A stretch of DNA of 64,000 bases from Sphingomonas sp. BT-65 (lineage in GTDB: Bacteria; Pseudomonadota; Alphaproteobacteria; Sphingomonadales; Sphingomonadaceae), in NCBI RefSeq assembly GCF_026107375.2, contig NZ_JAPCIA010000001.1, forward strand, positions 2,356,001 to 2,420,000, written 5' to 3'. The translations under genes were made by a program, and so were the position numbers. The notes beneath the pieces are model-generated. The model worked only from the letters and a program-made list of their open reading frames with translations, was not told where the DNA came from and ran no database searches. Numbering within the stretch: the stretch's first letter is position 1; each line of letters begins with the position of its first letter. Shown here one piece after another: positions 16,249 to 60,319 of this stretch.

Positions 16249-16662
16249 CTAGCGGACGCGGGTCCAGATCTTGGTGCGGCAGAAAACGGCGACGCAGCCC
16301 TTGAGCTCGAGCTTGCCGTCGGGCAGCAGCTTGAGATAACCACGGCCCGCCCCGTCGCCCGTTTCAGGGTCGTAGACCGGGCCGCCTTTCCATTCGCCCG
16401 GGCCGCCGGTGAAGCCGTTGAGCACCACCAGCCCCTTGAGCCGCCGCTGGCGCAGCTTGGGGTCCGAGTTGCGCAGGTCGCGCAGGTCGGGATTGGTGCG
16501 CAGCCGCGCGGCGTCGACCACGCGCCCGCACAGCGCCTGGCCGCAGCGATAGATCTGGACTCGCCCGCCTTCGCTCCCGGTGGCCCACACGCCGGTGATG
16601 TCGGCGGCCTGCGCGGCGCTGCCGGTGGCGAGCAAGGCGGCGACAAGCGCCAGCAGCCTCAT
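16249..16662 (-). CDS. DUF2147 secreted protein
   Basis: 137 aa with a signal peptide (cleavage near AQAA) and a DUF2147 lipocalin-like domain: GVWATGSEGGRVQIYRC at the N-terminus and KLELKGC..VFCRTKIWTRVR at the end, with paired cysteines. Function unknown; exported. The ATG overlaps the upstream PF10118 gene stop (ATGA), so both are likely expressed from the operator-bearing promoter at 17.53 kb. A paralogue is at 34649-35053. Confidence 0.85.
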   Translation of the reverse strand: MRLLALVAALLATGSAAQAADITGVWATGSEGGRVQIYRCGQALCGRVVDAARLRTNPDLRDLRNSDPKLRQRRLKGLVVLNGFTGGPGEWKGGPVYDPETGDGAGRGYLKLLPDGKLELKGCVAVFCRTKIWTRVR

Positions 16663-17516
16663 GCCGCCTGGCTCCGCGGCTGCTCGAGCAGGGCGAGCGA
16701 TTTCGCCAGCAAGGGCCGATCGTCGAGCTCCCAGGGATGGAAACCGGGCCGCATATAGACGAACACTCCCTTCAGCAGCAGGCGCAATGGGCCGGGACGG
16801 CCGTAGAGATAGCCCAGCAACCGGCGCCATGTCGCGAAATTGTTGCAGCCGTCCTGGCGCAGCAGATCGGCGGTGTTGCGGAAGATCACATAGTGGAAGC
16901 GCATCGTCGTCACGAACATCACCGTGCTGCGCTTGAGCCAGCGGCGCAGCCGCGTCATCTCGCGCGCGGCGTGGAGATAGGTGTCGAACGCCACCGCCTT
17001 GTGCTCGACCTCCTCGATCGCGTGCCATTGCCACAGCCGTTTGGCCTCGTCGGTCGCGCCCGCGAGATGCGCGGGATCGGCCAGCGCGTCATGCGCGAGC
17101 GTCGCGGTGAAATGTTCGAGCGCGCAGGTCGCCGCGAGCTGCTGGATCGGGGAGCGCCGCTTGACCCAGGCGATGGTGCGGCGCGCGCGGTCCTCCAGCG
17201 GCGCGATGTCGTATCCGACATCCTCGGCCTGGCGGTTGAACACCACATGCTCGCGCGAGTGCATCGACTCCTGATACAGGAAATCGTCGATCTGGCTGCG
17301 CAGCGGCTCCGGCGCGCCGTCGCGGAAATGACGCACCGAGGTCATGAAGAACTTCTCGCCGACCGGAAAGGTCGAGGAGAGCGCGTTGAAGAACGCCGTG
17401 CGCCCGGGATCACCGCTGTGCCACCAGCGCGGCAGCGGCGCCTTCCGGCCGAACTTCATATCCCGCTTGTGGATGGCGAGGTCCCGTGGCGTGCGGTCGG
17501 ACAAGATGCACCTCAT
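16659..17516 (-). CDS. Metal-dependent hydrolase of the PF10118 family
   Basis: 285 aa. The family core is clear: RWWHSGDPGRTAFFNALSSTFPVGEKFF, then FLYQESMHSREHVVFNR with Glu/His candidate metal ligands, then WQWHAIEEVEHKAVAFD with further Glu/His residues. The pattern resembles a helical di-metal site. Predicted metal-dependent hydrolase; substrate unknown. Start at the ATG at 17514-17516, which keeps the conserved DLAIHKRDMKFGRK segment; the operator palindrome is only about 14 bp upstream. Divergent from the TetR gene, in front of the DUF2147 gene. Confidence 0.88.
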   Translation of the reverse strand: MRCILSDRTPRDLAIHKRDMKFGRKAPLPRWWHSGDPGRTAFFNALSSTFPVGEKFFMTSVRHFRDGAPEPLRSQIDDFLYQESMHSREHVVFNRQAEDVGYDIAPLEDRARRTIAWVKRRSPIQQLAATCALEHFTATLAHDALADPAHLAGATDEAKRLWQWHAIEEVEHKAVAFDTYLHAAREMTRLRRWLKRSTVMFVTTMRFHYVIFRNTADLLRQDGCNNFATWRRLLGYLYGRPGPLRLLLKGVFVYMRPGFHPWELDDRPLLAKSLALLEQPRSQAA

Positions 17517-17529
17517 CGCGAATCAAATG

Positions 17530-17549
17530 ACATTAACATCAATGTTAAT
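17530..17549. promoter_or_regulatory. TetR-type operator, site 1, between the PF10118 and tetR genes
   Basis: ATTAACATCAATGTTAAT (17532-17549) is a perfect palindrome with 8-bp arms around CA. The reverse complement of 17530-17545 is ACATTGATGTTAATGT, matching site 2 (21962-21977) at 15 of 16 bases. A TATATT/TATTAA -10-like element for the minus-strand gene overlaps its edge and a TTGCAA lies farther upstream. Location between divergent genes suggests dual repression and autoregulation. Confidence 0.75.
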
Positions 17550-17702
17550 ATAGCAGGCCCACAATCGTTGCAAGATCGATTAAGACGCGGTCCAGATTGG
17601 GATTTCCGACGGAATCACCGGCGCAGAGAGGAATTGTGACTATTGCGCGCTTTGCGCTAAAACCGCGCGACCGGTCCGGGGGTGGGCCGGCAGGGAATGA
17701 GA

Positions 17703-18329
17703 ATGTACAAGCAACCGCCACCGCGCGTGAAGCGGCGCAAACGGCTGGGCCCCGAAGTCCGCGAAGAAGGCCTGGCGGCGGCGCGGCGCCTGCTGCTCGA
17801 GGGCGGGCCCGCCGCGGTCACGCTCGCCAATATCGGCGACGAGATCGGCATGTCGCACGCCAACGTCCTGCATCACTTCGGATCGGCGGCGAGCCTGCAA
17901 TCGGCGCTGATGGGTTCGATGATCAACGACCTCACCGTCGCGCTCGACCATGTCGTCGAGATGCTGCGGACCGACGCGGCTGCCCCACGCGCGGTGGCGG
18001 ACAAGGTGTTCGACGCGTTCGACAAGGGCGGCGCGGGCCAGCTCGCCGCGTGGATCATCCTGTCGGGCGATGTCGAGCATCTCGAGCCGGTGCGCGACGC
18101 GGTCAAGTCGCTGGTCGAGGCGATCGTCGGCCAGGCGTCCGACGAAGGCGCGCCGGAGCGGGTGCGCATGGCGGTGCTGATGATGGCGGTGTGCGCGTTC
18201 GGCGATGCCGTGATCGGCCCCTATGTGCGCGACATGCTCGACCAGGAGGACGATGCGATGCGCAGCCTGATCTCGCGCATCTTGCCGCTGTTCCTGCTTC
18301 CCCAGGGAATCCCGCCGGCCCTGACCTGA
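17703..18329 (+). CDS. TetR/AcrR family transcriptional regulator
   Basis: 208 aa. N-terminal HTH: GPAAVTLANIGDEIGMSHANVLHHFGSAASLQSAL (about residues 32-66), with the TetR recognition helix ending in HHFGS. The C-terminal ligand-binding domain is helical (DHVVEML, AAWIILSGDVEHL, AVLMMAVCAFGDAVIGPYV). The ATG at 17703 is preferred because AGGGA lies 6 nt upstream; ATG 17697 and GTG 17682 are in frame. Likely the regulator binding the three ACATTGATGTYAAT palindromes; this is inferred from the divergent promoter. Confidence 0.9.
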   Translation: MYKQPPPRVKRRKRLGPEVREEGLAAARRLLLEGGPAAVTLANIGDEIGMSHANVLHHFGSAASLQSALMGSMINDLTVALDHVVEMLRTDAAAPRAVADKVFDAFDKGGAGQLAAWIILSGDVEHLEPVRDAVKSLVEAIVGQASDEGAPERVRMAVLMMAVCAFGDAVIGPYVRDMLDQEDDAMRSLISRILPLFLLPQGIPPALT

Positions 18330-18333
18330 GTCG

Positions 18334-18515
18334 GATTCAGCTTCGCTGAATCGCGGCACCAGCCAGTCTCGGGTGAACAGCGCCCCGCGCTGTTCAGGCC
18401 ATGCCGGGGGCATGGCCGACCCGATACTCCCCACCCGGCCACCCATCAGGATACTTTCGGGGGTGGCCGGGTGGGGGAGCGGGCTGGTGCCGCCACGTTT
18501 CGGCTTTGCTGAAAC
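18334..18515. repeat. Hairpin-rich interspersed repeat, copy B (inverted relative to copy A)
   Basis: Reverse complement of copy A across the core: GGCACCAGCC...CTCCCCACCCGGCCACCC...GAAAGTATCCTGAT...CATGCCCCCGGCATG...CTGTTCA...GGCTGGTGCC. Its end hairpins differ from copy A in sequence but not in structure: GATTCAGC-TTC-GCTGAATC at 18334-18352 and GTTTCGGC-TTT-GCTGAAAC at 18497-18515. It lies between the TetR gene and the convergent TBDT. Confidence 0.85.
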
Positions 18516-18520
18516 AGATC

Positions 18521-21094
18521 CTAGAAGCGCTTGCGTACCGACAGCTTGATGGTCCGCCCGACCGGATCGACCTCGTCGCGGCTATACCCCGCCGGTACGC
18601 TGCCATCGCCCAGCGTCGCCCGGCGATAGTCGTTGAGCAGATTGTCGATATCGAGCGAGATCCGCATGTCGTCGAGCAACCTGGAGCGCTTCAGCGACGG
18701 AGAGAGATCCTCGGGATCGACGAACAGGCCGAGATCGACGCGCAGCGGCGGCGCGTAGCGATATTCGGCCTGCGGCCCGGTCGCGGCCCGATCGCGCAGG
18801 CGCGCGGCGCTGCTCCAGATCGCGCTGACGTTCGTCCCGAACGCCTTCTTTCCCGCCACGGCCTGGATCGACAGCAGGTGGCGGGACTGGCCCGTGTCGC
18901 GGAGTTGGTCGATCACCGGAACGCCGGGGCGCGTCAGCAACTCGCTCCTCAAGCGCCAGCGATGATTGAGCGTCAGCGTTAACCGGAGCGGATCGGCGGC
19001 CTTGGCCTCCGCCGGCCCCTTGGGCTTGGCGCCGGGGTCGGGGAGCCGCAGCGTGATGCCCGAGACGAGCTCGGACTCGCTGCTGCGGGCGATGTTGATC
19101 GCACGCGCGTCCACCGCCACCAGCCGCCCGGCCGCATCGCGCGTCACGCGCTCGGGAAAGGCCGCCTCGATCACCGGGGTCAGCTCGGGAAAGGCGGCGA
19201 CCCCGCCGGTTCCGCGGTACGCGCGATAGGAGACGTCGATCGAGAGTGCCTGGCTTCCGAACGGCCGCAGCAACGCGCCGAACACGCGGTTCTGCCGGCT
19301 GCCGGCGCGCAGCAACGGGTTGCCGCCGGTGATCCAGACCGGCTCGGCCACTTCCTGGCGCGCGAAATCGTAGATGCGCAGCACGGTCTCGACCCGCGGC
19401 CCGTCGAGCTGCTCGAACGTCGGCGCCACCTCCTCATGATCGAACGATCCGCGCAACTGCAGTTTCGCGAACGGCGACCAGGTGAGCCCGGTGCCGTAGC
19501 GCTTCTGCCATTGCGAACCGGAGGTCTTGTGCCCGCCCAGCGACAGGTCGAGCGCAAGGTCGCCGAGCCGCCACAGCTCGCCCTCGCCGCGGCGCGAGAT
19601 CGGCACGCCGAAGGAAAGCTGGCCATAGAGCTGGTCGCGCGTGCGGCGGTCCAGCGCGATCAGCGCGTCGAGATTGTCGATCCGGCGGTTCTCGACCGAG
19701 CTGCGGCTGGCATTCGCCGACAGGCTCGCCGTCACCGGCCCCGCCGGCAAATCGATAAGCGATTTCCCGAGACCGAACCGCGCGCTCATGTTCTCGCCGC
19801 GCGAACGATTGGTTTCGGCGAGGAGGAGCCGGTCGCCCCAGGGCGCATAGGGATTGAACGCGGGGTCGCCGCGGCTGACCAGCTCCTGCACGCGCACGGT
19901 ATCGATCCCGCGCTCGAGCAGGCTGCTCGCCCAGTTGCGCGTATAGCTGGCCGCGACGTTGGTCTGCCAGCCGCCGATCGTGCCCGACAGGCTGAGCGCG
20001 GCACCCAGCGAGTCCGAACTGGTCTCGCTGCGCAACGGCCGGTCGCGCCGGAGCGGGCGGACCAGCAGGACGTCGTCGGCGAAGGGCGACCACGGGCTGC
20101 CAGCCGGCAGGACGATCGAAGCCATCGGCACGCCGCGCCGGCCGCTGCTGCTGTTCGACGCGGCGTTGACGCTGAGCGAGGCGCTGAAGGGGCCGAGCGG
20201 ACGCGTCATGCCGAGCCGCAGCGAGAGGTTGCGCCGCGACGGCCGCAGCGTCTCGAAGTCGCGCGGATCGGCCGGATGATCGCGGTTGGCGGTCGCGACG
20301 AAGTCTTTGAGCGCCGGCGGCCGCGACAGGACATCGCCGGGAAAGGCGGCGATCGTGACGAGTCCGCCCGCCGCCCGGCTCAGCGCGGGATCGATTTCCG
20401 CCTGGCCGAGGCCGGCGGCATAGCCGGTCAGGTCGATCGGGCCGGTGCGCGGCGGGACGTTCCGCGCGCTCTTGGGCAAGGCGCTGTCGAGGGCGACGCG
20501 CGCCTGCACATTCCACCGCACGGGTCCTGCAATCGCGACCTGGCTCGCGGTCACGCCGCCGCCATATTGGCCGCCGCGAGTCGCCCATTCGACCTCCGCA
20601 TCGGCGTTGCGGCTGGCGAAATTCTTCTTGAGCACCAGATTCACCACGCGCCGGCCCGGCGGGTGGCCATAGCGCGCGGCCGCCTCGGGACGCAGCACGG
20701 CGATGCGGCTCAGCGCTTCGGCGGGATAGCCCAGCACCGAGCGGTCGAATCCGACCTCCTGCCCGTTGACCAGGATGACCGGCTCCTCGTCCGATCCGGT
20801 GGCGATCGGGCCGAGGCGCTTGAGCAGCTCCTCGATACTGTCGGCGCCGTAGCTCGCGATCTCCGCTTCGCCGACCTCGGTCTCGGCCTCCACCTTGGCA
20901 TCGCCATAGCGTTGGGCGGTGATCACGATCTCGTCGGGCCGCGCCGCGCCCTTGCCCGGATCGGTTGCGGTTTCGGAAGGCGGCGCCTGTGGCGGAGGCG
21001 CCGCACCGTTCGCCTGCCCCGCCCGCGCCCTGGCGTCGCCATGTCCCCAGGGGGACAGGATCGTGATCAAGACGGCGAAACGCGCCAGCTTCAT
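18521..21094 (-). CDS. TonB-dependent receptor-like outer-membrane protein
   Basis: 857 aa. Signal peptide, then DEIVITAQRYGDAK, a plug domain (EEPVILVNGQEVGFDRSVLGYPAEALSRIAVLRPEAAARYG, about 110-160) and a long beta-barrel ending in KLSVRKRF with C-terminal Phe. The plug carries the VLxPEAAxxYG form seen in a sphingomonad/Caulobacter receptor subgroup. I use the ATG at 21092-21094 because the signal peptide starts there; a TTG at 21127 is the alternative. Substrate unknown. It lacks the shared operator and is separated from the upstream gene by a terminator. Confidence 0.85.
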   Translation of the reverse strand: MKLARFAVLITILSPWGHGDARARAGQANGAAPPPQAPPSETATDPGKGAARPDEIVITAQRYGDAKVEAETEVGEAEIASYGADSIEELLKRLGPIATGSDEEPVILVNGQEVGFDRSVLGYPAEALSRIAVLRPEAAARYGHPPGRRVVNLVLKKNFASRNADAEVEWATRGGQYGGGVTASQVAIAGPVRWNVQARVALDSALPKSARNVPPRTGPIDLTGYAAGLGQAEIDPALSRAAGGLVTIAAFPGDVLSRPPALKDFVATANRDHPADPRDFETLRPSRRNLSLRLGMTRPLGPFSASLSVNAASNSSSGRRGVPMASIVLPAGSPWSPFADDVLLVRPLRRDRPLRSETSSDSLGAALSLSGTIGGWQTNVAASYTRNWASSLLERGIDTVRVQELVSRGDPAFNPYAPWGDRLLLAETNRSRGENMSARFGLGKSLIDLPAGPVTASLSANASRSSVENRRIDNLDALIALDRRTRDQLYGQLSFGVPISRRGEGELWRLGDLALDLSLGGHKTSGSQWQKRYGTGLTWSPFAKLQLRGSFDHEEVAPTFEQLDGPRVETVLRIYDFARQEVAEPVWITGGNPLLRAGSRQNRVFGALLRPFGSQALSIDVSYRAYRGTGGVAAFPELTPVIEAAFPERVTRDAAGRLVAVDARAINIARSSESELVSGITLRLPDPGAKPKGPAEAKAADPLRLTLTLNHRWRLRSELLTRPGVPVIDQLRDTGQSRHLLSIQAVAGKKAFGTNVSAIWSSAARLRDRAATGPQAEYRYAPPLRVDLGLFVDPEDLSPSLKRSRLLDDMRISLDIDNLLNDYRRATLGDGSVPAGYSRDEVDPVGRTIKLSVRKRF

Positions 21095-21257
21095 TACGGG
21101 GCACCGATATTCTGCAACGATCCGCAACTCCGAACGATACTCCGCCGCCGGCGGCTGCCCCTGCCGAGCCTCGATCCTTCCAGCTGGCGAACCGCGGCGC
21201 GTTGATAGGCACGCGTCCGGCGCGCTGTCACCCCGGCCAGGCGGAACGAGCCGTCAG

Positions 21258-21286
21258 AAAAAACGGGCGCACGATACCGTGCGCCC
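21258..21286 (-). terminator. Intrinsic terminator of the PraB-like gene
   Basis: On the minus strand GGGCGCACG - GTAT - CGTGCGCCC forms a 9-bp GC-rich stem followed by GTTTTTT (A-run at 21258-21263 on the plus strand), 37 bp past the stop codon. It isolates the PraB-like gene from the downstream TBDT. Confidence 0.88.
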
Positions 21287-21322
21287 GCCCCCTTTTAGGT
21301 TTCATTCCGATCGAACTTGCGA

Positions 21323-21880
21323 TCAGGGATGGTTCGGGTTGTAGTCCCCGTCGCCAGGCTCAACCGCATTGCCCGAGCTCGGCGTGTCGAGATCGACGTC
21401 GCCGTCCAGCGTGCAGTCCGCGCCGCTCACCGCCGGCAGCGTGCCCGCGACGCTCAGCCGCTGCAGACCTTCGTTCCAGGTCGCGACGATATCGCCCTCG
21501 CAATTGCCCGGCGTGATCGTCGTCACGAACACGTCGTGCAGCGTGAAGGTGCTGCCCGAATAGCTGATCTTGCCCGCGGGAATCGGAGCGATGTTGACCG
21601 ACGAGCAGAGGCCAAAGAGACCGCCCGTGAGGGTGATGGTCGCGCTCAGGCCGGCAACGTCGCTGTGATTGAAGGGGGGCGAGGTATCGGCCGCATCGTT
21701 GGTGCCGGTGATCTCGACCTCGGCAGTGCAGGTGAGTGCAATGCCCTTGTTGACATCGACAGTCCCCGTGAAGACCCACGGGCTCGTCGCGTCTGGAACG
21801 ATATAAGCTTCCTGCGCCGCAACGGTCTGCGACCCGAGCAACGCGACAGAGCTTGCAAGAAATGCAAATGCCTTTTTCAT
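21323..21880 (-). CDS. Secreted PraB-like protein (putative)
   Basis: 185 aa. Signal peptide MKKAFAFLASSVALLG..AQA, then an all-beta domain (FTGTVDVNKGIALTCTAEVEITGT; ATITLTGGLFGLCSSV; a TLHDVFVTTITPGNCEGDIVATW stretch) with four cysteines, and an acidic Gly/Asp/Asn-rich tail. The pattern resembles proteins annotated as PraB, described in pseudomonads as an extracellular protein that stimulates alkane oxidation; this match is from memory and moderate. A GGGAG Shine-Dalgarno precedes the ATG. Operator site 2 lies 82 bp upstream and an intrinsic terminator closes the gene, so it is monocistronic. Confidence 0.7.
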   Translation of the reverse strand: MKKAFAFLASSVALLGSQTVAAQEAYIVPDATSPWVFTGTVDVNKGIALTCTAEVEITGTNDAADTSPPFNHSDVAGLSATITLTGGLFGLCSSVNIAPIPAGKISYSGSTFTLHDVFVTTITPGNCEGDIVATWNEGLQRLSVAGTLPAVSGADCTLDGDVDLDTPSSGNAVEPGDGDYNPNHP

Positions 21881-21892
21881 CCCACGTCTCCC

Positions 21893-21914
21893 GATTTAGC
21901 TATGATTTAGCTAT
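21893..21914. repeat. Tandem 11-bp repeat in the leader of the PraB-like gene
   Basis: GATTTAGCTAT occurs twice head to tail directly upstream of the Shine-Dalgarno region. It may affect translation or be a small slippage repeat. Confidence 0.5.
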
Positions 21915-21961
21915 GTATTTTTGTCACGCGCCTGAAACTACACGGCATCTTCTTTCTACTC

Positions 21962-21977
21962 ACATTGATGTCAATGT
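21962..21977. promoter_or_regulatory. TetR-type operator, site 2, upstream of the PraB-like gene
   Basis: ACATTGATGTCAATGT is a perfect palindrome (7-bp arms around TG). On the minus strand it overlaps a TTGACA -35 element, the layout expected for a repressor site. It shares 15 of 16 bases with site 1 and 14 of 16 with site 3. Confidence 0.75.
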
Positions 21978-22054
21978 CAATACCTATCAATCCCTAAGCC
22001 GCCCTTAACCCTCCATTTCGGCGTCGATCGCGCCCGTCCCGCCGAGGAATCGCG

Positions 22055-25000
22055 CTAGAACCGCTTGGTCATGCTGAACCCGACGATCCGCGGGTCGAGC
22101 GTGAACACGTTGGTGGTGAGTCCGGTGTCGTCGGCGTTGGTGAAGAAATCGGTGATCGGCGCGTCGTCGAACACGTTCTTCACATAGAGCTGGAAGACCA
22201 GATCATCCGCCGGGCGCGCCAGCGTCATCGACAGGTTGAGATTGTCCCACGCTCGCAGCCGGTCATATTCCGTGTTGTAGATCCGCGCGAAGCTTTCCGA
22301 CTGGCGATAATAGTCGCCGCGGACGGTCAGCTCCCAATCTCCGCCGCCGATGAAAAAGGTGTATTGGGCGCCGATATTCGCCGTCCAGCGCGGCGAGTTG
22401 GGCAGCTCGTTGCCGCCCAGATCCGCGTAGAAGCCACGCCCGCCATTGGGCGCACCGCTTCCGCCCTGGGCGATGTTGAGGCCGACCGTGGCGGGATTGT
22501 AGGGCGCCAGCGGATCATAGGTGAAGCCGTAGAAGGTCGAGAACGGCACCTGGCCGTTCGGCAGGGCGGGGTTGAAGTCGCCGATTCGGCTCGATCCAGG
22601 GCAGAGCCCGGACAGCGCGAGCGCCCGGAAGGCCGGATTACCGGACAGGATCCGCTCGACGAATGCGCGCGGCGCGATGCAGTTGGACGGCACCTGGATC
22701 CAGGGACGCAGCACGACCCAGTCCGGATCGCCCTGGGTGCGGTTCATCACGTCGATCGACTGCGACCCTTCCTTGAGCCGCGTCTTCAGCAGGCCGAAAT
22801 TGCCGTCGATGCGGAAAGCGCGCGACGGGCGCCACGCCGCCTCGAACTCGAGTCCCATGCTGGTCGCGTCGAAATTCTCGTTGAACGCGATGCGATCGAC
22901 GATCTGCGAGACCTGATAATCCTTGTAGTCGTAGAAGAAGCCGGTGACGTTGAAGGTTAGGCGCCCGCCGTCGAAGCTGTTCTTGGTCCCAATCTCGAAC
23001 GCATTGACATATTCGGGTTCAAAGGTCTGCGGCAGGAACTGGTACTGAACCACCGCCGGGTTGAAATCGACCCGCGGCGGATTGGTGCCGCCGCCCTTGT
23101 AGCCGCGCGCGGCCGAGAGATAGATCAGCGTGTCGTCGGTGAAACCGAGGTCGGGCTTCCAGTCGAGCACCGCGCGACCGGTGAACCGGCCCCATTGCTG
23201 CTCGATATCGGGCAGCGCCGGATAGCCGCTGTTCACCCGGCCGCCGGTGATGCCGCCCGGAAACGCCATTCCCGTGCCGCCGCCGAGCAACAATTGGCTC
23301 GGGACCTGAGTCGATACCTTCTCGTCATTGGTGTAGCGCGCCCCGAGCGTCAGCTTCACATTGCTGGCGAGGTTCCAATAGAGCTCGCCGAATGCCGCCC
23401 AGCTTTTGATCCGTACGCCATTCTGGCTGAGGAAATAATTGTGGCCCTGGTTGTTCAGCTGGCCGATCGGATTGGGATCGACATAGATGCACTCCCTGCC
23501 TTCAAAGCCAAGCGCGCAGGGCAGGAGCGCATTGTTCCCGCCAAGCGCGGGATTGCTGTCCTTGCTGTAGAACCATTCCGCCAACAACGTGAAGAAGTTG
23601 TTGAAGACGTAATAATCGTCCTGCGATTTGAAATCGAGATAGTTGACGCCGAAGTTAAAATTCACCGGCCCATCGAAGCTCGACTGCAGACGGAGCTCCT
23701 GCGACCATTGTTCGTTGCGCGAGCGGCTGAGATCCGCGGACAGCATCCGGTCCGAACAGCCGAGCTGGGGATCGCAGCGAATGCCTCCCGGCGTCGGCCC
23801 CGGATACAAGGCGGTATTGAGCGGGACGTTGCGGTTGTTCACCAGCGCGCCGGTGGAATCGTTGAAGATCGGATTGCTGACGAACCGGTTATAGTCCTGC
23901 GTCGAGAAATAGCGGTCGCGCGCAAAGGCGGTCTGCGATACCAGCTGCAACCCGTCCGCGGGCTCGAACTGAAGGTTGAGCTGGAACACGTCGTTGGTCG
24001 CGCGGAACTTGGGATCATAGCTGGTCGCGATCTCGCGCAGGTTGCGCGATTGCGTTAGGCCAGCAAACGGGTCGCTCGCATTGGTCGCGAACACATCGGC
24101 CCCGGGCCTGGTGCCCGTACCCGGCCGCCTGCCGATGAGGATGCCCTCCGCCGGCACCAACGCGTAGACGAGGCTGCGGCCGTTGGGCACGCCATAAGCG
24201 GCTTCGTCATAGAGCGAGCCGGGCAAGCAGCCCTGGCTCATCCGTCCACGCAGCAGCGGATCGGTGACCGCGACATTGCCGACCCGCTCGGGCCCGGGAT
24301 CGTTGGTGCACAGCTGCTTGCCGGTGCGCGAGCGGTCGTCATCCTCCTCGAAATGCTGCCAGATGAAGTTCGCGCGGAAGCGGTCGCTCGGCTCCCACTG
24401 GATCGACGCGCGCGTCGACCACAGGCTGCGGCCGTTGACGCGCTTCTGCGTGAAGGTGTTGTAGTCGAAGCCGTCGCGGCTGGTGAAGGCGCCCGCCACG
24501 CGCACGCCCAGCGTGTCGGTGAGCGGCACGTTGAGCATCCCGCTCGCCCGCATCGTGTCGAAACTGCCGACCTCGAGCTTGGCTTCCATCGCGAAATCCG
24601 GCCCGGGGAGCGCGGGGATGACGTTGACCACGCCGCCCGTCGCATTGCGGCCGTAGAGCGTACCCTGCGGGCCGCGCAGCACCTCCACCCGCTGCAAGTC
24701 GAAGAATTCGGATTCGAACAGCCGGTTGCGGATCAGCGGCGTGTTGTTGAAGCTCACCGCGACCGCCGGGTCGCTCGACGCGGAAATGGCCTTGGTCCCG
24801 ATCCCGCGGATCGAGAAATTGTACATGCTGAAATTGCTCTTCGAGAAATTGACGTTGGGGACCGCGCGCAGCAGCTCCGACCCGCCCTCGATCTTGTACT
24901 GGTCGAGCGCCTCGGCCGAGAAGGCCGAGATCGCGATGGGAACATCCTTGAGCCGCTCCTCGCGCTTCTGCGCCGTGACGACCACCTCGCCCTCATAGGT

Positions 25001-25123
25001 CGGTGCAGCGCTCTGGTTCTGCGGGGTCTCGCCGCCGCCCTCCTGGGCATGCGCGGGAATCGCGAGCGCGCAGGCAAGGGCGAGAAGGCTGGTGGCACGT
25101 ACGGCGTCGGATACGGTCTTCAA
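22055..25123 (-). CDS. TonB-dependent receptor
   Basis: 1022 aa. Signal peptide (LALACALAIPAHAQ), TonB-box-like EGEVVVTAQKREERLKDVPIAISAFS, plug with NFSIRGIGT and VEVLRGPQGTLYGRNATGGVVNV, then a 22-strand-type barrel ending FTLDPRIVGFSMTKRF. I set the start at TTG (25121-25123), because GGAGGGG stands 7 nt upstream and a signal peptide starts there; the in-frame ATG at 25186 has no ribosome site and adds a non-signal extension. Outer-membrane uptake, substrate unknown. Operator site 3 lies about 206 bp upstream, linking it to the TetR regulon. Confidence 0.92.
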   Translation of the reverse strand: MKTVSDAVRATSLLALACALAIPAHAQEGGGETPQNQSAAPTYEGEVVVTAQKREERLKDVPIAISAFSAEALDQYKIEGGSELLRAVPNVNFSKSNFSMYNFSIRGIGTKAISASSDPAVAVSFNNTPLIRNRLFESEFFDLQRVEVLRGPQGTLYGRNATGGVVNVIPALPGPDFAMEAKLEVGSFDTMRASGMLNVPLTDTLGVRVAGAFTSRDGFDYNTFTQKRVNGRSLWSTRASIQWEPSDRFRANFIWQHFEEDDDRSRTGKQLCTNDPGPERVGNVAVTDPLLRGRMSQGCLPGSLYDEAAYGVPNGRSLVYALVPAEGILIGRRPGTGTRPGADVFATNASDPFAGLTQSRNLREIATSYDPKFRATNDVFQLNLQFEPADGLQLVSQTAFARDRYFSTQDYNRFVSNPIFNDSTGALVNNRNVPLNTALYPGPTPGGIRCDPQLGCSDRMLSADLSRSRNEQWSQELRLQSSFDGPVNFNFGVNYLDFKSQDDYYVFNNFFTLLAEWFYSKDSNPALGGNNALLPCALGFEGRECIYVDPNPIGQLNNQGHNYFLSQNGVRIKSWAAFGELYWNLASNVKLTLGARYTNDEKVSTQVPSQLLLGGGTGMAFPGGITGGRVNSGYPALPDIEQQWGRFTGRAVLDWKPDLGFTDDTLIYLSAARGYKGGGTNPPRVDFNPAVVQYQFLPQTFEPEYVNAFEIGTKNSFDGGRLTFNVTGFFYDYKDYQVSQIVDRIAFNENFDATSMGLEFEAAWRPSRAFRIDGNFGLLKTRLKEGSQSIDVMNRTQGDPDWVVLRPWIQVPSNCIAPRAFVERILSGNPAFRALALSGLCPGSSRIGDFNPALPNGQVPFSTFYGFTYDPLAPYNPATVGLNIAQGGSGAPNGGRGFYADLGGNELPNSPRWTANIGAQYTFFIGGGDWELTVRGDYYRQSESFARIYNTEYDRLRAWDNLNLSMTLARPADDLVFQLYVKNVFDDAPITDFFTNADDTGLTTNVFTLDPRIVGFSMTKRF

Positions 25124-25328
25124 GATCTGTCCCCTCCACAATCCTGGCGTCGCGCCGTGCCGGTCACAGGGATGTCGCCGTCCCATCGACCGGCAAGGCG
25201 CGATGCGTCTTGTCTTTTACGGAGGAGATGCATCGGCAGTGCGCGCCCGGTGTCCCCAGCGGACCGCGCTCGAAATATCCTCTCCGTTTGCGGGGATGTT
25301 TCCCCTTACGTCAAGATTCCCATTATGA

Positions 25329-25344
25329 ACATTGATGTCAATTA
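25329..25344. promoter_or_regulatory. TetR-type operator, site 3, upstream of the TBDT
   Basis: ACATTGATGTCAATTA matches site 2 at 14 of 16 positions with the inner ATTGATGTCAAT palindrome intact. On the minus strand it again includes a TTGACA -35-like hexamer, as at site 2. Confidence 0.7.
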
Positions 25345-25471: not shown

Positions 25472-25535
25472 CCTGACGGGCGCCCGCCTATAGATGCAGA
25501 GCGGCCGCGAGAGCCGGGCAAGAGGGGACGGACAT

Positions 25536-27059
25536 ATGGAGCATGGCAATCCGCCGATTCGCAGGATCGTGATCGTCGGCGGCGGCACGGCCGGCTGGAT
25601 GACCGCGGCCCTGCTCTCCAAGCTGTTGTTCCGCGGGTACGAGATCACGCTGGTCGAATCGGACGAGATCGGGATCATCGGCGTCGGCGAAGCGACCATT
25701 CCCGGGATCAAGGACTACAACCTCCTCGCCGGCATCGACCTGACCGAGATGGTCCGCGCGACCCAGGCGACGTTCAAGCTGGGGATCGAGTTCGTCAACT
25801 GGCGCGAGCCGGGCTTTCGCTACATCCACGGCTTCGGCAAGATCGGCACCGACCTCATATGGCTCCACCCGCACCAGCTGTGGCTCAAGCTGGTGGCCAT
25901 GGGACAGGCCAAGCATTTCGACCTCTATTCGCTCAACACGCTCGCCGCGCGGCAGAACAAGTTCTGCTTCCCCGATCCGCGCAACCCGGGATCGCCGATG
26001 GGGCATCTCGATTATGCCTATCATTTCGACGCCTCGCTTTATGCCCGCTTCCTGCGCGGCCAGTCCGAGGCGCGCGGGGTGACGCGGACCGAGGGCCGGA
26101 TCGTCGAGGTGAAGCAGCGCGCCGAGGACGGCTTCGTCGAGGGCGTCGTGCTGGCCGACGGGCGCACGGTCGAGGGCGACCTGTTCGTCGATTGCTCGGG
26201 GATGCGCTCGCTGCTGCTCGGCCAGACCTTGGGCGTCGACTACGAGCACTGGAACCACTGGCTGCCCTGCGACCGCGCGCTCGCGGTACCGTGCGAGAGC
26301 GTCTCGCCGCTCACCCCCTATACGCGCTCGACCGCGCATGGCTCGGGCTGGCAATGGCGCATCCCACTGCAGCACCGCATCGGCAACGGCCATGTCTATG
26401 CGAGCGCGCAGATCAGCGACGACGAGGCCGCGGACGTGCTGCTCGCCAATCTCGACGGCAAGGCGCTCGCCGATCCGCGGCCAGTCAAGTTCGCACCGGG
26501 CAAGCGCCGCAAGGCGTGGGAGAAGAACGTCGTCGCGATCGGGCTCGCCAGCGGCTTCCTCGAGCCGCTCGAATCGACCAGCATTCACCTGATCCAGACC
26601 GGCATATTGCGGCTGGTGGCGCTGTTCCCCGGTCAGGGCTTCAACGCGGCCGACATCGCCGAGTATAACCGGCAGCACAATTTCGAGTTCGACGATGTGC
26701 GCGACTTCATCATCGCGCACTACAAGGTCACCAACCGCGAGGACACGCCGTTCTGGGCCTATGTCCGCAACATGGACATCCCCGACAGCTTGCACGAGCG
26801 GCTCGAGCTGTTCCGCGCCTCGGCCCGCTTCTTCGTCCACGGCAAGGCCGAGCTGTTCCGCGAGGAGAGCTGGGTTCAGGTGCTGCTCGGTCAGGGCCTG
26901 CCGATGACCTACGATCCGGTGGTCGACATGATCCCCGAGGAGGATGTCGTCGCGTTCATGCGCGACGTCGAGGAAGTGAACGCCGATGTCGCGGCGGCGA
27001 TGCCGACGCACGAGGCGTTCATCGACCGCCACTGCAAGGCGCCGCCCCTAGCGGCGTGA
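25536..27059 (+). CDS. Tryptophan-halogenase family flavoprotein
   Basis: 507 aa. Key features of flavin-dependent tryptophan halogenases are intact: FAD site VIVGGGTAGWMTA, GVGEATIPGI, the candidate catalytic Lys in FKLGIEFVNW (Lys81), the GSGWQWRIPL motif (WxWxIP) and the candidate Glu in FLEPLESTSIHLIQ. The ATG at 25536 follows AGAGGGG. In sphingomonads and Caulobacter such genes usually sit beside TBDTs and sugar regulators, so the real substrate may not be free tryptophan. Upstream is a LacI-like site. The flavin reductase partner is not in the window. It converges with ssb, 7 bp away. Confidence 0.9.
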   Translation: MEHGNPPIRRIVIVGGGTAGWMTAALLSKLLFRGYEITLVESDEIGIIGVGEATIPGIKDYNLLAGIDLTEMVRATQATFKLGIEFVNWREPGFRYIHGFGKIGTDLIWLHPHQLWLKLVAMGQAKHFDLYSLNTLAARQNKFCFPDPRNPGSPMGHLDYAYHFDASLYARFLRGQSEARGVTRTEGRIVEVKQRAEDGFVEGVVLADGRTVEGDLFVDCSGMRSLLLGQTLGVDYEHWNHWLPCDRALAVPCESVSPLTPYTRSTAHGSGWQWRIPLQHRIGNGHVYASAQISDDEAADVLLANLDGKALADPRPVKFAPGKRRKAWEKNVVAIGLASGFLEPLESTSIHLIQTGILRLVALFPGQGFNAADIAEYNRQHNFEFDDVRDFIIAHYKVTNREDTPFWAYVRNMDIPDSLHERLELFRASARFFVHGKAELFREESWVQVLLGQGLPMTYDPVVDMIPEEDVVAFMRDVEEVNADVAAAMPTHEAFIDRHCKAPPLAA

Positions 27060-57787: not shown

Positions 57788-57823
57788 TCGTCCCCATTGC
57801 GTCCGCGCATCGGACAAGCCTAT

Positions 57824-57837
57824 TTACACATGTGTAA
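57824..57837. promoter_or_regulatory. Perfect 14-bp palindrome over the ribosome-binding site
   Basis: TTACACATGTGTAA with 7-bp arms, touching the AAGGAG Shine-Dalgarno of the following gene. A TetR-type operator form. No matching regulator gene is nearby. Confidence 0.6.
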
Positions 57838-57845
57838 GGAGAGCG

Positions 57846-58808
57846 ATGCCCAACCTGCCCGATCCCGTCGATCTGGCCGTTCCCGCCTTCGTCCTGCTCG
57901 TGGCGGCGGAGATGGTCGTCGCGCGGCTCAAGGATCGCAGCCGCTATTGCCCGCGCGACACGCTGACCTCGCTGATGCTCGGCTTCGGCAGCACGATCGC
58001 CGGCGTGCTGGCGGGCGGTATGGTGTTCGCCCTGGCGACCTGGGTGCACCAGTTCCGGCTCTTCGACATCAACTATGCCTGGTATTGGTTCGTCCTCGCC
58101 TTCGTGCTCGACGACCTCGCTTACTATGTCTTCCACCGTTCGGCGCATCGCGTGCGGTGGTTCTGGGCGAGCCACGTCATCCACCATTCGAGCCAGCATT
58201 ATAATCTGTCGACCGCGCTGCGTCAGACCTGGACCGGCTTCTTCAGCCTGGGCTTCATCTTCCGCTTGCCGCTGTTCCTGATTGGCTTCCCGCCGGCGAT
58301 GGTGTTCTTCGTCGCGGGCGTGAACCTCGTCTATCAGTTCTGGATCCACACCGAGATGATCGGGCGGTTGCCGCGCTGGTTCGAGGCGGTGATGAACACG
58401 CCCTCACATCACCGCGTCCATCACGCGACCAACGCGCGCTATCTCGACAAGAATTATGCCGGGGTGTTCATCGTCTGGGACCGGATGTTCGGCACGTTCG
58501 AGCCCGAGCGCGACGACGAGCGCCCGCGCTACGGCATCGTCCACAATTTGCCCGACTTCAACGTGATCCGCGCGGCATTCCACGAATGGTGGGGGATCGC
58601 GAAGGATGTGTGGGCGGCGCCGGGCATGAAGGCACGGCTCGGCTATATGTTCGGGCCACCGGGGTGGAGCCACGACGGCAGCCGCGATACATCCGAAACG
58701 ATCAAGGCGCGCTGGCGCGCGCGGGAACAGGCGGGGGAGCAGTGGAAGAGGCGGACATCGTCGTCATCGGCGCCGGATCCGGGGGCAGCGCCGCCGCGGG
58801 CCGCCTGA
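57846..58808 (+). CDS. Sterol-desaturase / fatty acid hydroxylase superfamily protein
   Basis: 320 aa membrane di-iron enzyme. His clusters: FVLDDLAYYVFHRSAHRVRWFWASHVIHHSSQHY (HxxxH, HxxHH) and NTPSHHRVHHATN (HHxxHH). Multiple TM helices before. A palindrome sits over its Shine-Dalgarno. The C-terminal tail (after about 290) overlaps the GMC gene by 67 bp and has no family signal. Likely an oxygenase or desaturase of a hydrophobic substrate, in one unit with the GMC dehydrogenase. Confidence 0.9.
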   Translation: MPNLPDPVDLAVPAFVLLVAAEMVVARLKDRSRYCPRDTLTSLMLGFGSTIAGVLAGGMVFALATWVHQFRLFDINYAWYWFVLAFVLDDLAYYVFHRSAHRVRWFWASHVIHHSSQHYNLSTALRQTWTGFFSLGFIFRLPLFLIGFPPAMVFFVAGVNLVYQFWIHTEMIGRLPRWFEAVMNTPSHHRVHHATNARYLDKNYAGVFIVWDRMFGTFEPERDDERPRYGIVHNLPDFNVIRAAFHEWWGIAKDVWAAPGMKARLGYMFGPPGWSHDGSRDTSETIKARWRAREQAGEQWKRRTSSSSAPDPGAAPPRAA

Positions 58809-60319
58809 GCGAGGACGGCAAGTACAAGGTCGCGGTGCTCGAGGCGGGCGGGCGCAATACCGGCTTCCGCACGCTGATGCCCGGTGCGATCGCGATGCAG
58901 ACACCCGCGACCAACTGGGCGTATGAGACGGTCCCGCAGCCCGGGCTCAACGGCCGGCGCGGCTACCAGCCGCGCGGCAAGGGTCTGGGCGGATCGAGCG
59001 CGATCAATGCGATGCTCTATATCCGCGGGCATCCCTGGGATTATGACAATTGGGAAAAGCTCGGCGCCACTGGCTGGGGTTGGGACGATGTGCTCCCGGT
59101 GTTCAAGCGCAGCGAGGCCAATGGGCGCGGGACGAATGAGTGGCACGGCGGTGACGGACCGCTGCAGGTCAGCGACCAGAGTTTCGTCCATCCCGGCAGC
59201 GCGGCGTTCGTCGACGCCGCCGCATCGCTTCAGATCCCGCGCAACGCCGACTTCAACGGCGCCCGGCAGGAGGGCGCGGGCATCTATCAGGTGACGCAGA
59301 AGGGCGGTGAGCGCTGGACGGCATCGCGCGGCTATCTGACCGAGCGGCCGAATCTCGAGATCCTGTGCGACTCGATTGTCGAGCGCGTGCTGTTCGAGGA
59401 CGGCCGTGCCTGGGGCGTCGCCTATTCGCGCGGCGGCCAGTCCAAGGTGATCCGGGCACGGCGCGCGGTGGTGCTGGCGGGCGGGGTGTTCGGCACTGCG
59501 CAGCTGCTGATGCTGTCCGGCATCGGGCCGGGGGCGCACCTCCAGGAGCTCGGGCTACCGGTGCGGATCGAGCGCGGCGAGGTTGGGAGCAATTTGCAGG
59601 ACCATCTCGACTATGTCGCGGCGTTCGAGACCAAGGGCAGCTTGTTCCTCGGCCGCTCGCTGATCGGATCGCTCAAGGGGCTGGCGGCGATGGCGCGCTG
59701 GTTCCGCACCCGCAGCGGGCCGATGACCTCGCCCTTCGCCGAGGCCGGGGCGTTCCTCAAGACCGATCCCGCGCTGCCCGCGCCCGATATTCAGCTCCAC
59801 TTCCTCGTCGCGATCGTCGAGGATCATGGACGCGCCAAGGTCAAGGCGCACGGCTATAGCTGCCACGCCTGCGTGCTGCGCCCCGAGAGCCGCGGCACCG
59901 TGCGGCTCGCCTCGCCCGATTCGCGCGCCGCGCCGCTGATCGACCCCGGTTTCCTCACCGACCGCCGCGACGTCGACCTGCTCATCAAGGGCGTCCGGAC
60001 GATGTACCGCATCCTGGACGCGCAACCGCTCGCCGCATTCGGGGCGCGCGACCGCTACCCAATCGACCGGAACGACAATGCCGCGCTCGAACGCCTGATC
60101 CGGGCGCGAGCGGACACCATCTATCACCCGGTGGGCACCGCGCGGATGGGCAGCGATGCCGACGCTGTCTGCGATCCCAAGCTGCGCGTGCGCGGCGTCG
60201 AAGGCCTCTATGTCGCCGACGCCTCGGTGATGCCGCGGCTGATCGGCGGGAACACCAACGCGCCGAGCATCATGATCGGCGAGCGTTGCGCCGATTTCAT
60301 CCGCACCGATCTCAGTTGA
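58742..60319 (+). CDS. GMC family FAD oxidoreductase (choline dehydrogenase / alcohol dehydrogenase-like)
   Basis: 525 aa. FAD site VVIGAGSGGSAAAGRLSED, the GMC signature 1 region GKGLGGSSAINAMLYIRG, signature 2 LAGGVFGTAQLLMLSGIGP, and the active-site His in YHPVGTARMG with NTNAPSIMIGERCADF. GTG at 58742 follows GGGGGAG. It oxidises alcohol groups to aldehydes; with the membrane oxygenase upstream it may form a two-step oxidation. It resembles AlkJ/BetA proteins. Confidence 0.91.
   Translation: MEEADIVVIGAGSGGSAAAGRLSEDGKYKVAVLEAGGRNTGFRTLMPGAIAMQTPATNWAYETVPQPGLNGRRGYQPRGKGLGGSSAINAMLYIRGHPWDYDNWEKLGATGWGWDDVLPVFKRSEANGRGTNEWHGGDGPLQVSDQSFVHPGSAAFVDAAASLQIPRNADFNGARQEGAGIYQVTQKGGERWTASRGYLTERPNLEILCDSIVERVLFEDGRAWGVAYSRGGQSKVIRARRAVVLAGGVFGTAQLLMLSGIGPGAHLQELGLPVRIERGEVGSNLQDHLDYVAAFETKGSLFLGRSLIGSLKGLAAMARWFRTRSGPMTSPFAEAGAFLKTDPALPAPDIQLHFLVAIVEDHGRAKVKAHGYSCHACVLRPESRGTVRLASPDSRAAPLIDPGFLTDRRDVDLLIKGVRTMYRILDAQPLAAFGARDRYPIDRNDNAALERLIRARADTIYHPVGTARMGSDADAVCDPKLRVRGVEGLYVADASVMPRLIGGNTNAPSIMIGERCADFIRTDLS

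Follow-up and report, generated by a model that had tools for sequence, protein, structure and literature searches.

Why would one short palindrome stand in front of genes for an enzyme, an exported protein and an outer-membrane receptor? The question is raised by a 64,000-nucleotide stretch of the genome of Sphingomonas sp. BT-65 (the window), in which such palindromes accompany a gene for a TetR-family regulator of 215 amino acids (17682-18329, plus strand; PF00440, 34.6 bits against a cut-off of 24). They precede the genes of a PF10118 protein (16659-17516, minus strand), a PraA/PraB-like protein (21323-21880, minus strand) and a TonB-dependent receptor (TBDT; 22055-25123, minus strand). 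We suggest that this TetR is a ligand-responsive repressor acting on a 20-bp operator, that it controls uptake and oxidation of acyl-type compounds, and that it belongs, as one branch, to a larger TetR family of sphingomonads with a common operator. For this explanation as a whole we estimate a probability of about 75%. Binding by TetR, its ligand and the imported substrate are what we infer. The regulon itself is confirmed as an observation, larger and more clearly lipid-related than an earlier sequence-only reading had proposed, and its interpretation is partly supported.

The operator and its regulator

The three palindromes first noticed at 17530-17545, 21962-21977 and 25329-25344 are indeed present, and their 16-bp frame turned out to be shifted in register. 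Comparison of tetR-upstream regions yields a symmetric operator of 20 bp, with a consensus of about TAYTKACAT-NN-ATGTMARTA. Operator 1 (CATTAACATCAATGTTAATA, 17531-17550) lies between tetR and the PF10118 gene, whose ATG it precedes by 14 bp. Operator 2 (CATTGACATCAATGTGAGTA on the minus strand, 21957-21976) lies 76 bp upstream of the ATG of the PraB-like gene, and operator 3 (AATTGACATCAATGTTCATA on the minus strand, 25324-25343) 200 bp upstream of the likely TTG start of the TBDT gene.

In the window, the 16-bp motif, with up to three mismatches allowed, has 6 matches at three loci (counting each strand and each overlapping register); 0.15 would be expected, and a count of 6 was not reached in any of 100 shuffles. 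In the whole genome (4,077,375 bases in 6 contigs) there are 19 rows at the same tolerance, annotated in part, versus 0 in a backward control. Such a scan had been proposed as a check of the regulon, and its outcome is favourable: the three window palindromes are the best three matches in the 4.08-Mb genome, and only one other place, C3:68271, within a 1002-aa open reading frame (ORF), has two mismatches or fewer. We further counted a palindromic 20-bp position weight matrix (PWM) from 63 tetR-upstream regions, 45 sites being used. It scores 30.8 at 17531 (in-sample, as this region belongs to the training regions), 27.1 at 25324 and 22.9 at 21957; all other window positions score lower, and the maximum in the reversed window is 3.9. 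Among the 63 regions, 41 score at least 17 (again in-sample, with a few duplicate regions), that is, a palindromic operator beside the regulator's own gene is kept in orthologues.

The same is seen when TetR loci are compared directly. In 30 such loci (L018-L047, own locus included) the PF10118 gene is present in 23 and the symmetric motif, at three mismatches or fewer, in 16; the operator between tetR and PF10118 is conserved in relatives. TetR relatives (E <= 1e-20) occur in 117 of 149 family genomes. Besides the own genome, four of these have a close TetR (59-81%), the remaining relatives reaching about 31-48%. In a tree of 89 rows, a branch with support 99/98 separates the 56 close TetR rows from the rest.

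Conservation of the sites in relatives

Using five TBDT orthologues as queries, we assembled 79 loci (from the best 80 of 121) in Sphingopyxis, Sphingomonas, Erythrobacteraceae, Caulobacter, Brevundimonas, Maricaulaceae, Microbulbifer and others. The orthologous receptors are 55-77% identical, and many of the loci have tetR, PF10118, DUF2147, PraB-like or ORF868 genes nearby, the last coding for an 868-aa protein described below. A promoter was counted when a site scored at least 17 within 250 bp upstream of a gene; tetR-upstream stretches were masked and duplicates dropped (L136, L202, L205, L206 and L207 were left out as duplicates or later additions). By this measure, a site precedes 32 of 79 TBDT genes versus 7 of 866 other genes, several of these 7 sharing an intergenic region with a listed target (Fisher 3.9e-31). 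It also precedes PraB-like genes (6/43), FAD dehydrogenase genes (10/21), ECF sigma genes (7/36) and fadE (2/5), and none of the ORF868 (0/35) or FecR (0/30) genes. Because FAD dehydrogenase promoters in Caulobacter and ECF sigma promoters in Sphingopyxis share their intergenic region with TBDT, these promoters are not independent evidence.

When the matrix columns were permuted (n = 200, matched threshold), 0 permuted matrices did as well for TBDT, 2 for FAD dehydrogenase and 1 for FadE. The PraB-like count was equalled by 16 of 200, so the link is strong for TBDT and weak for PraB-like genes on this test. Could the TBDT and PraB-like sites then be AT-rich promoter features that resemble the operator by chance, with only the tetR/PF10118 site functional? 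A PraB-like count that is not clearly above permuted matrices would fit this idea. It is countered by the TBDT count, never reached by permutation, by co-occurrence with TetR (below), and by two genomes in which PraB-like promoters keep their sites, and we regard it as very improbable. These genomes are Pelagerythrobacter marinus H32 and G098. Orthologues of TBDT (66/59%), the PraB-like protein (33-44%) and ORF868 (49/53%) stand there in the same order as in the window, TBDT - PraB-like - ORF868, with sites before the TBDT and PraB-like genes. The tetR/PF10118 pair, with its own site, lies elsewhere in the genome; in P. marinus, where both promoters retain the site, tetR is on another contig. 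Apart from the window and these two, the PraB-like promoters with a site are L141, L143 and L151; three more (L138, L139, L152) have one at two mismatches or fewer, but under the matrix threshold or without a gene call. As a separate observation, L141 is labelled Phenylobacterium sp. SCN 69-14, yet its TetR is nearly identical with the one in Sphingopyxis terrae; the contig is probably mis-binned.

Judged by comparison, then, there is one operator each for tetR/PF10118-DUF2147, TBDT and the PraB-like/ORF868 pair. Many related genomes retain the TBDT link and a few the PraB-like one, also when tetR is not linked. The idea of one TetR-linked operator thus stands for PF10118-DUF2147 and TBDT, where it is conserved and co-occurs with TetR, and more weakly for the PraB-like gene. 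Sharing of the operator in other genera, for which a comparative search had been suggested, is likewise seen, for TBDT in many genomes and for PraB-like genes in few.

How far can the sites be assigned to this particular regulator? Counted by genome, a TBDT site is present in 30 of 48 genomes with a TetR of the close clade and in none of the 14 that lack one (p=2.1e-5); raising the threshold to 20 gives 21/48 and 0/14 (p=0.0013). TetR presence was listed by hand for each genome. Four loci with missing TetR status (L182, L192, L194, L195) were dropped. In four others (L133, L146, L191, L197) the TBDT or PraB-like gene was not called, and the genomes of L133/L146 and L197 are uncounted. In 37 genomes where TetR is not linked to TBDT, a search with the window TetR found a close one in 22 (54-80%; three of these genes carry an in-frame stop), only a 36-45% relative in 11, and none in 4.

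The own genome holds a possible competitor. One of its three-mismatch rows (C2:108525) directly precedes a second tetR, 43% identical, with a PF10118 gene alongside. This second divergent pair, with its own operator (C2:107621-109154), adjoins an AcrAB-type efflux system. One may therefore imagine that the operator is real and is bound mainly by this paralogue (C2:108546), which would be a fatty-acid regulator of general scope and leave to the window TetR, as a duplicate, a small or overlapping part. TetRs of the roughly 40% group do adjoin PF10118 and have the same palindrome, and the motif precedes fadD in genomes where only such a TetR was found. On the other hand, TBDT sites are confined to close-clade genomes, although 11 of those without a close TetR carry a 36-45% relative. 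We consider a leading role of the paralogue unlikely and keep the window TetR as the presumed repressor.

Lipid genes and a model of the regulon

What might the regulon be for? A strict form of the palindrome occurs 134 times in 78 of the 149 family genomes, versus 1 occurrence in a backward control, and the operator reaches many related bacteria of soil and water. Among 30 annotated loci of the 134 it precedes fadD (8), tetR/PF10118 (7), Coq4-like (2), thioesterase (2), acyl-CoA dehydrogenase (1), P450 (1), CDP-alcohol transferase (1) and ABC ATPase (1) genes or stands beside an M16 peptidase gene (2); 5 have no class assigned. At L156 and L157 the site lies ahead of a fadE-led beta-oxidation operon; this also has reductase and thiolase genes, plus a FadD gene in L156. 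The three-gene core had been named correctly, but closely similar operators precede fatty-acid genes elsewhere in the family.

The PF10118 gene is itself replaced in some relatives. A Coq4-like gene takes its place in several Caulobacteraceae and Maricaulaceae clusters (one member Pfam-tested, the others assigned by clustering), with a site upstream in 6 of 10. Among Brevundimonas and Maricaulaceae, we noted the replacement in L168, L169, L170, L173, L174, L177, L179, L180, L184 and L201. Such exchange suggests that Coq4-like and PF10118 proteins are analogous enzymes; human COQ4 is described as an oxidative decarboxylase in a review (PMC11495197).

In the own genome, the Coq4-like gene (34%) has TATTAACACGCTTGTCAGTA 11 bp ahead of its ATG (PWM 18.6), and the fadD orthologue (59%) has a variant site only, TTACACCTGTGTAA, immediately before its ATG (PWM 15.8). 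A similar variant, TTTACACATGTGTAAG at 57823-57838, is a candidate fourth site in the window (PWM 15.2), 7 bp before an FA_hydroxylase gene (PF04116; 57846-58808, plus strand) that is followed by a GMC oxidoreductase ORF (58586-60319). The form TTACACNNGTGTAA occurs exactly 3 times in the own genome versus 0 in the control: before fadD, before the FA_hydroxylase-GMC pair and before a flavin monooxygenase gene. The last product, which we take to be AlmA-like, has only a weak, Baeyer-Villiger-type match in NCBIfam. The extended variant occurs in the 149 genomes at 9 places in 7 genomes, the three own-genome rows matching by construction; the 6 outside include fadD (1), Coq4-like (2) and flavin monooxygenase (2) genes.

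Since the operator stands before fadD, PF10118, Coq4-like, thioesterase and acyl-CoA dehydrogenase genes, the ligand would most likely be a long-chain acyl or hydrocarbon compound. The theme of a small hydrophobic ligand, raised from the window alone, gains by these family-wide fatty-acid targets. The regulon may instead import some other hydrophobic compound, such as a sterol, an isoprenoid, or a quinone-like or aromatic molecule. Coq4-like genes in the PF10118 position would suit this, as would the bile-acid-symporter family protein and PRK12834 FAD dehydrogenase that adjoin some clusters; family comparison gives TBDT no named substrate class either. However, one FAD dehydrogenase tested against 3-ketosteroid dehydrogenase had no match at E <= 1e-10, and the identified family-wide targets are mostly fadD and acyl genes. 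We hold this alternative to be a real possibility, but the less probable one, and continue with acyl-type compounds.

The PF10118 protein (255 bits against a Pfam gathering score of 33.2) fits into this picture as an enzyme. The family is labelled a metal hydrolase (Metal_hydrol). In 27 PF10118 sequences the residues E53, E82xxH85, E133 and E168xxH171 (numbered without Met1) are invariant, an E/ExxH/E/ExxH pattern. In a structure model (pLDDT 90.7) these six putative ligands lie on predicted helices 36-61, 71-98, 122-145 and 155-170, with H171 just beyond. Foldseek gives matches of ferritin-like fold to the model, with E-values that are not significant (best 0.013), and the sequence has nothing in PDB beyond one chance match. 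Given the pattern and the predicted fold, the "hydrolase" label, adopted also by the sequence-only reading, is not upheld; the protein looks like a ferritin-like di-metal (diiron-type) oxygenase. The residue pattern and, as far as predicted, the fold resemble those of AurF/CmlI, R2lox, aldehyde-deformylating oxygenase and acyl-ACP desaturase. To our knowledge, no activity of a PF10118 protein has been reported. Behind it, a signal-peptide-like DUF2147 protein (16249-16662, minus strand; PF09917, 81.2 bits), kept in relatives, is coupled as first described: its ATG begins at 16662 and overlaps, as ATGA, the PF10118 stop at 16659-16661.

The regulon would work as follows. When ligand is lacking, TetR dimers would occupy and block the promoters. 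Once an acyl-type compound of long chain length builds up, be it a fatty acid, an acyl-CoA or an acid derived from a hydrocarbon, TetR would be released. The TBDT, aided by the PraB-like barrel protein and ORF868, would then import a hydrophobic substrate, and the PF10118 di-metal enzyme would oxidise it for entry into beta-oxidation.

Several points speak against this explanation. Firstly, there are matters of method. The PWM seed was typed by hand after the sites had been viewed, and the matrix counts come from tetR-upstream regions only. Related genomes are non-independent samples. A simple sigma-70 scan at each of the three operator places gave 0 promoters; because TTGACA, earlier read as -35 hexamers of the PraB-like and TBDT genes, is also part of the operator consensus, it is not promoter evidence. 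Secondly, the assignment to TetR has gaps. As the paralogue of about 40% uses a nearly identical operator, either TetR may act at a given site. At threshold 17 the TBDT site is missing from 18 of the 48 genomes that carry TetR, and L157 has a strong fadE site and no close-clade TetR, which would also suit the paralogue. To the low PraB-like count and its permutation result is added a presence of 4/27 in TetR-bearing versus 0/10 in other genomes (p=0.56). Thirdly, the own-genome fadD and Coq4-like sites score low, the excess of the extended variant is modest (9 places versus 3 in the backward control), and this ACAC variant may belong to another regulator. Finally, TetR proteins may act as activators too.

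A more daring version of the model concerns the PraB-like protein. This has a signal-peptide-like start, four invariant cysteines and a predicted beta-barrel (model pLDDT 87.8). Its likeness to PraA/PraB, suspected from the start, survives in part: 3 of 5 tested homologues match the NCBIfam PraA/PraB models, all under the curated cut-offs of 150 and 120 bits (best 34.7 bits). The other two have no NCBIfam match, and the window protein itself has neither an NCBIfam nor a Pfam match. One close homologue is named protein activator of alkane oxidation in UniRef. PraA and PraB are described as alkane-solubilising in Pseudomonas, a praA mutant being retarded on hexadecane (PMC4542665). The window protein is similarly small and exported-looking, and its gene differs in adjoining a TBDT gene and not an alkB/ompP1 cluster. 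The barrel could be a secreted carrier, a TonB-dependent "lipophore", from which a dedicated TBDT receives a lipid or a long-chain hydrocarbon, much as iron is delivered by TbpB-type or haemophore partners. An acyl-responsive TetR would couple this energised uptake to PF10118 as a so far unrecognised di-iron oxygenase, or to the Coq4-type enzyme replacing it in Caulobacteraceae and Maricaulaceae. The proposal is tentative, and we would sooner expect it to fail than to hold. If true, these alphaproteobacteria would widely possess a new route for actively importing hydrocarbons or lipids.

Comparable regulons are known. PsrA and FadP are TetR regulators of fatty acid degradation described in 12 and 3 taxonomic groups, respectively; the accessible part of the same study names a TBDT only in the HutC histidine regulon of Caulobacterales and Sphingomonadales (PMC5343134). 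Our regulon would work like the PsrA/FadP type of gamma- and betaproteobacteria, to which we liken it by family and targets and not by membership of an orthologous group: at family level it has fadD, acyl-CoA dehydrogenase and beta-oxidation genes. Unlike these systems, the window branch also has TBDT, PraB-like and PF10118 targets. The operators presumably differ as well. No description of the regulon, nor of any TetR fatty-acid regulon in these groups, was found in literature that mostly left out subscription papers, and the original guess that it is undescribed agrees with this. For lipid and hydrocarbon handling in sphingomonads and Caulobacteraceae, a definite operator with its regulator and targets is hereby offered, together with a suggested function class for PF10118 and bacterial Coq4-like proteins, and a TonB-dependent route for oily substrates becomes testable.

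Neighbouring genes, stray sites and alternative receptor control

The TBDT (PF00593 and PF07715) occupies an ORF of 22055-25186, and we read its probable start from the sequence as a TTG at 25123, preceded by GGAGGGG. Operator 3 also faces a divergent gene for a flavin-dependent halogenase-family protein (25494-27059, plus strand; PF04820, 620.5 bits), which is a possible extra target. ORF868 (18521-21127, minus strand), coding for an outer-membrane-receptor-like protein that has no Pfam match, lies downstream of the PraB-like gene on the same strand, without its own operator.

Some sites elsewhere are of a different kind. In L084, L088, L240 and L251 the operator stands beside the M16 peptidase gene, and in the first three it is followed by a short ORF (about 101-112 aa); of these ORFs, two were tested and have no Pfam match. 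A near-perfect palindrome, TTGACATTTATGTCAA, lies in the own genome (C3:163335-163350; around 5336 of L091) upstream of flagellar flgF/flgG-type genes and is unexplained by a lipid regulon.

The orthologous receptors seem to be controlled in either of two ways, from the surface by FecI/FecR signalling or from inside the cell by a TetR. In many relatives TBDT shares its locus with ECF sigma and FecR genes; the window locus differs in this respect, since the window genes from 10 to 35 kb include no match to the FecR or ECF families. Operator site and FecI/FecR genes, the latter scored anywhere in the locus, tend to exclude each other: in 75 loci we found the site only in 22, both in 8, FecI/FecR only in 29 and neither in 16 (Fisher p=0.002). 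In five Sphingopyxis loci (L149, L150, L165, L186, L193) an operator-like site lies between the divergent ECF sigma and TBDT genes, so that here a single promoter may be subject to both kinds of control.

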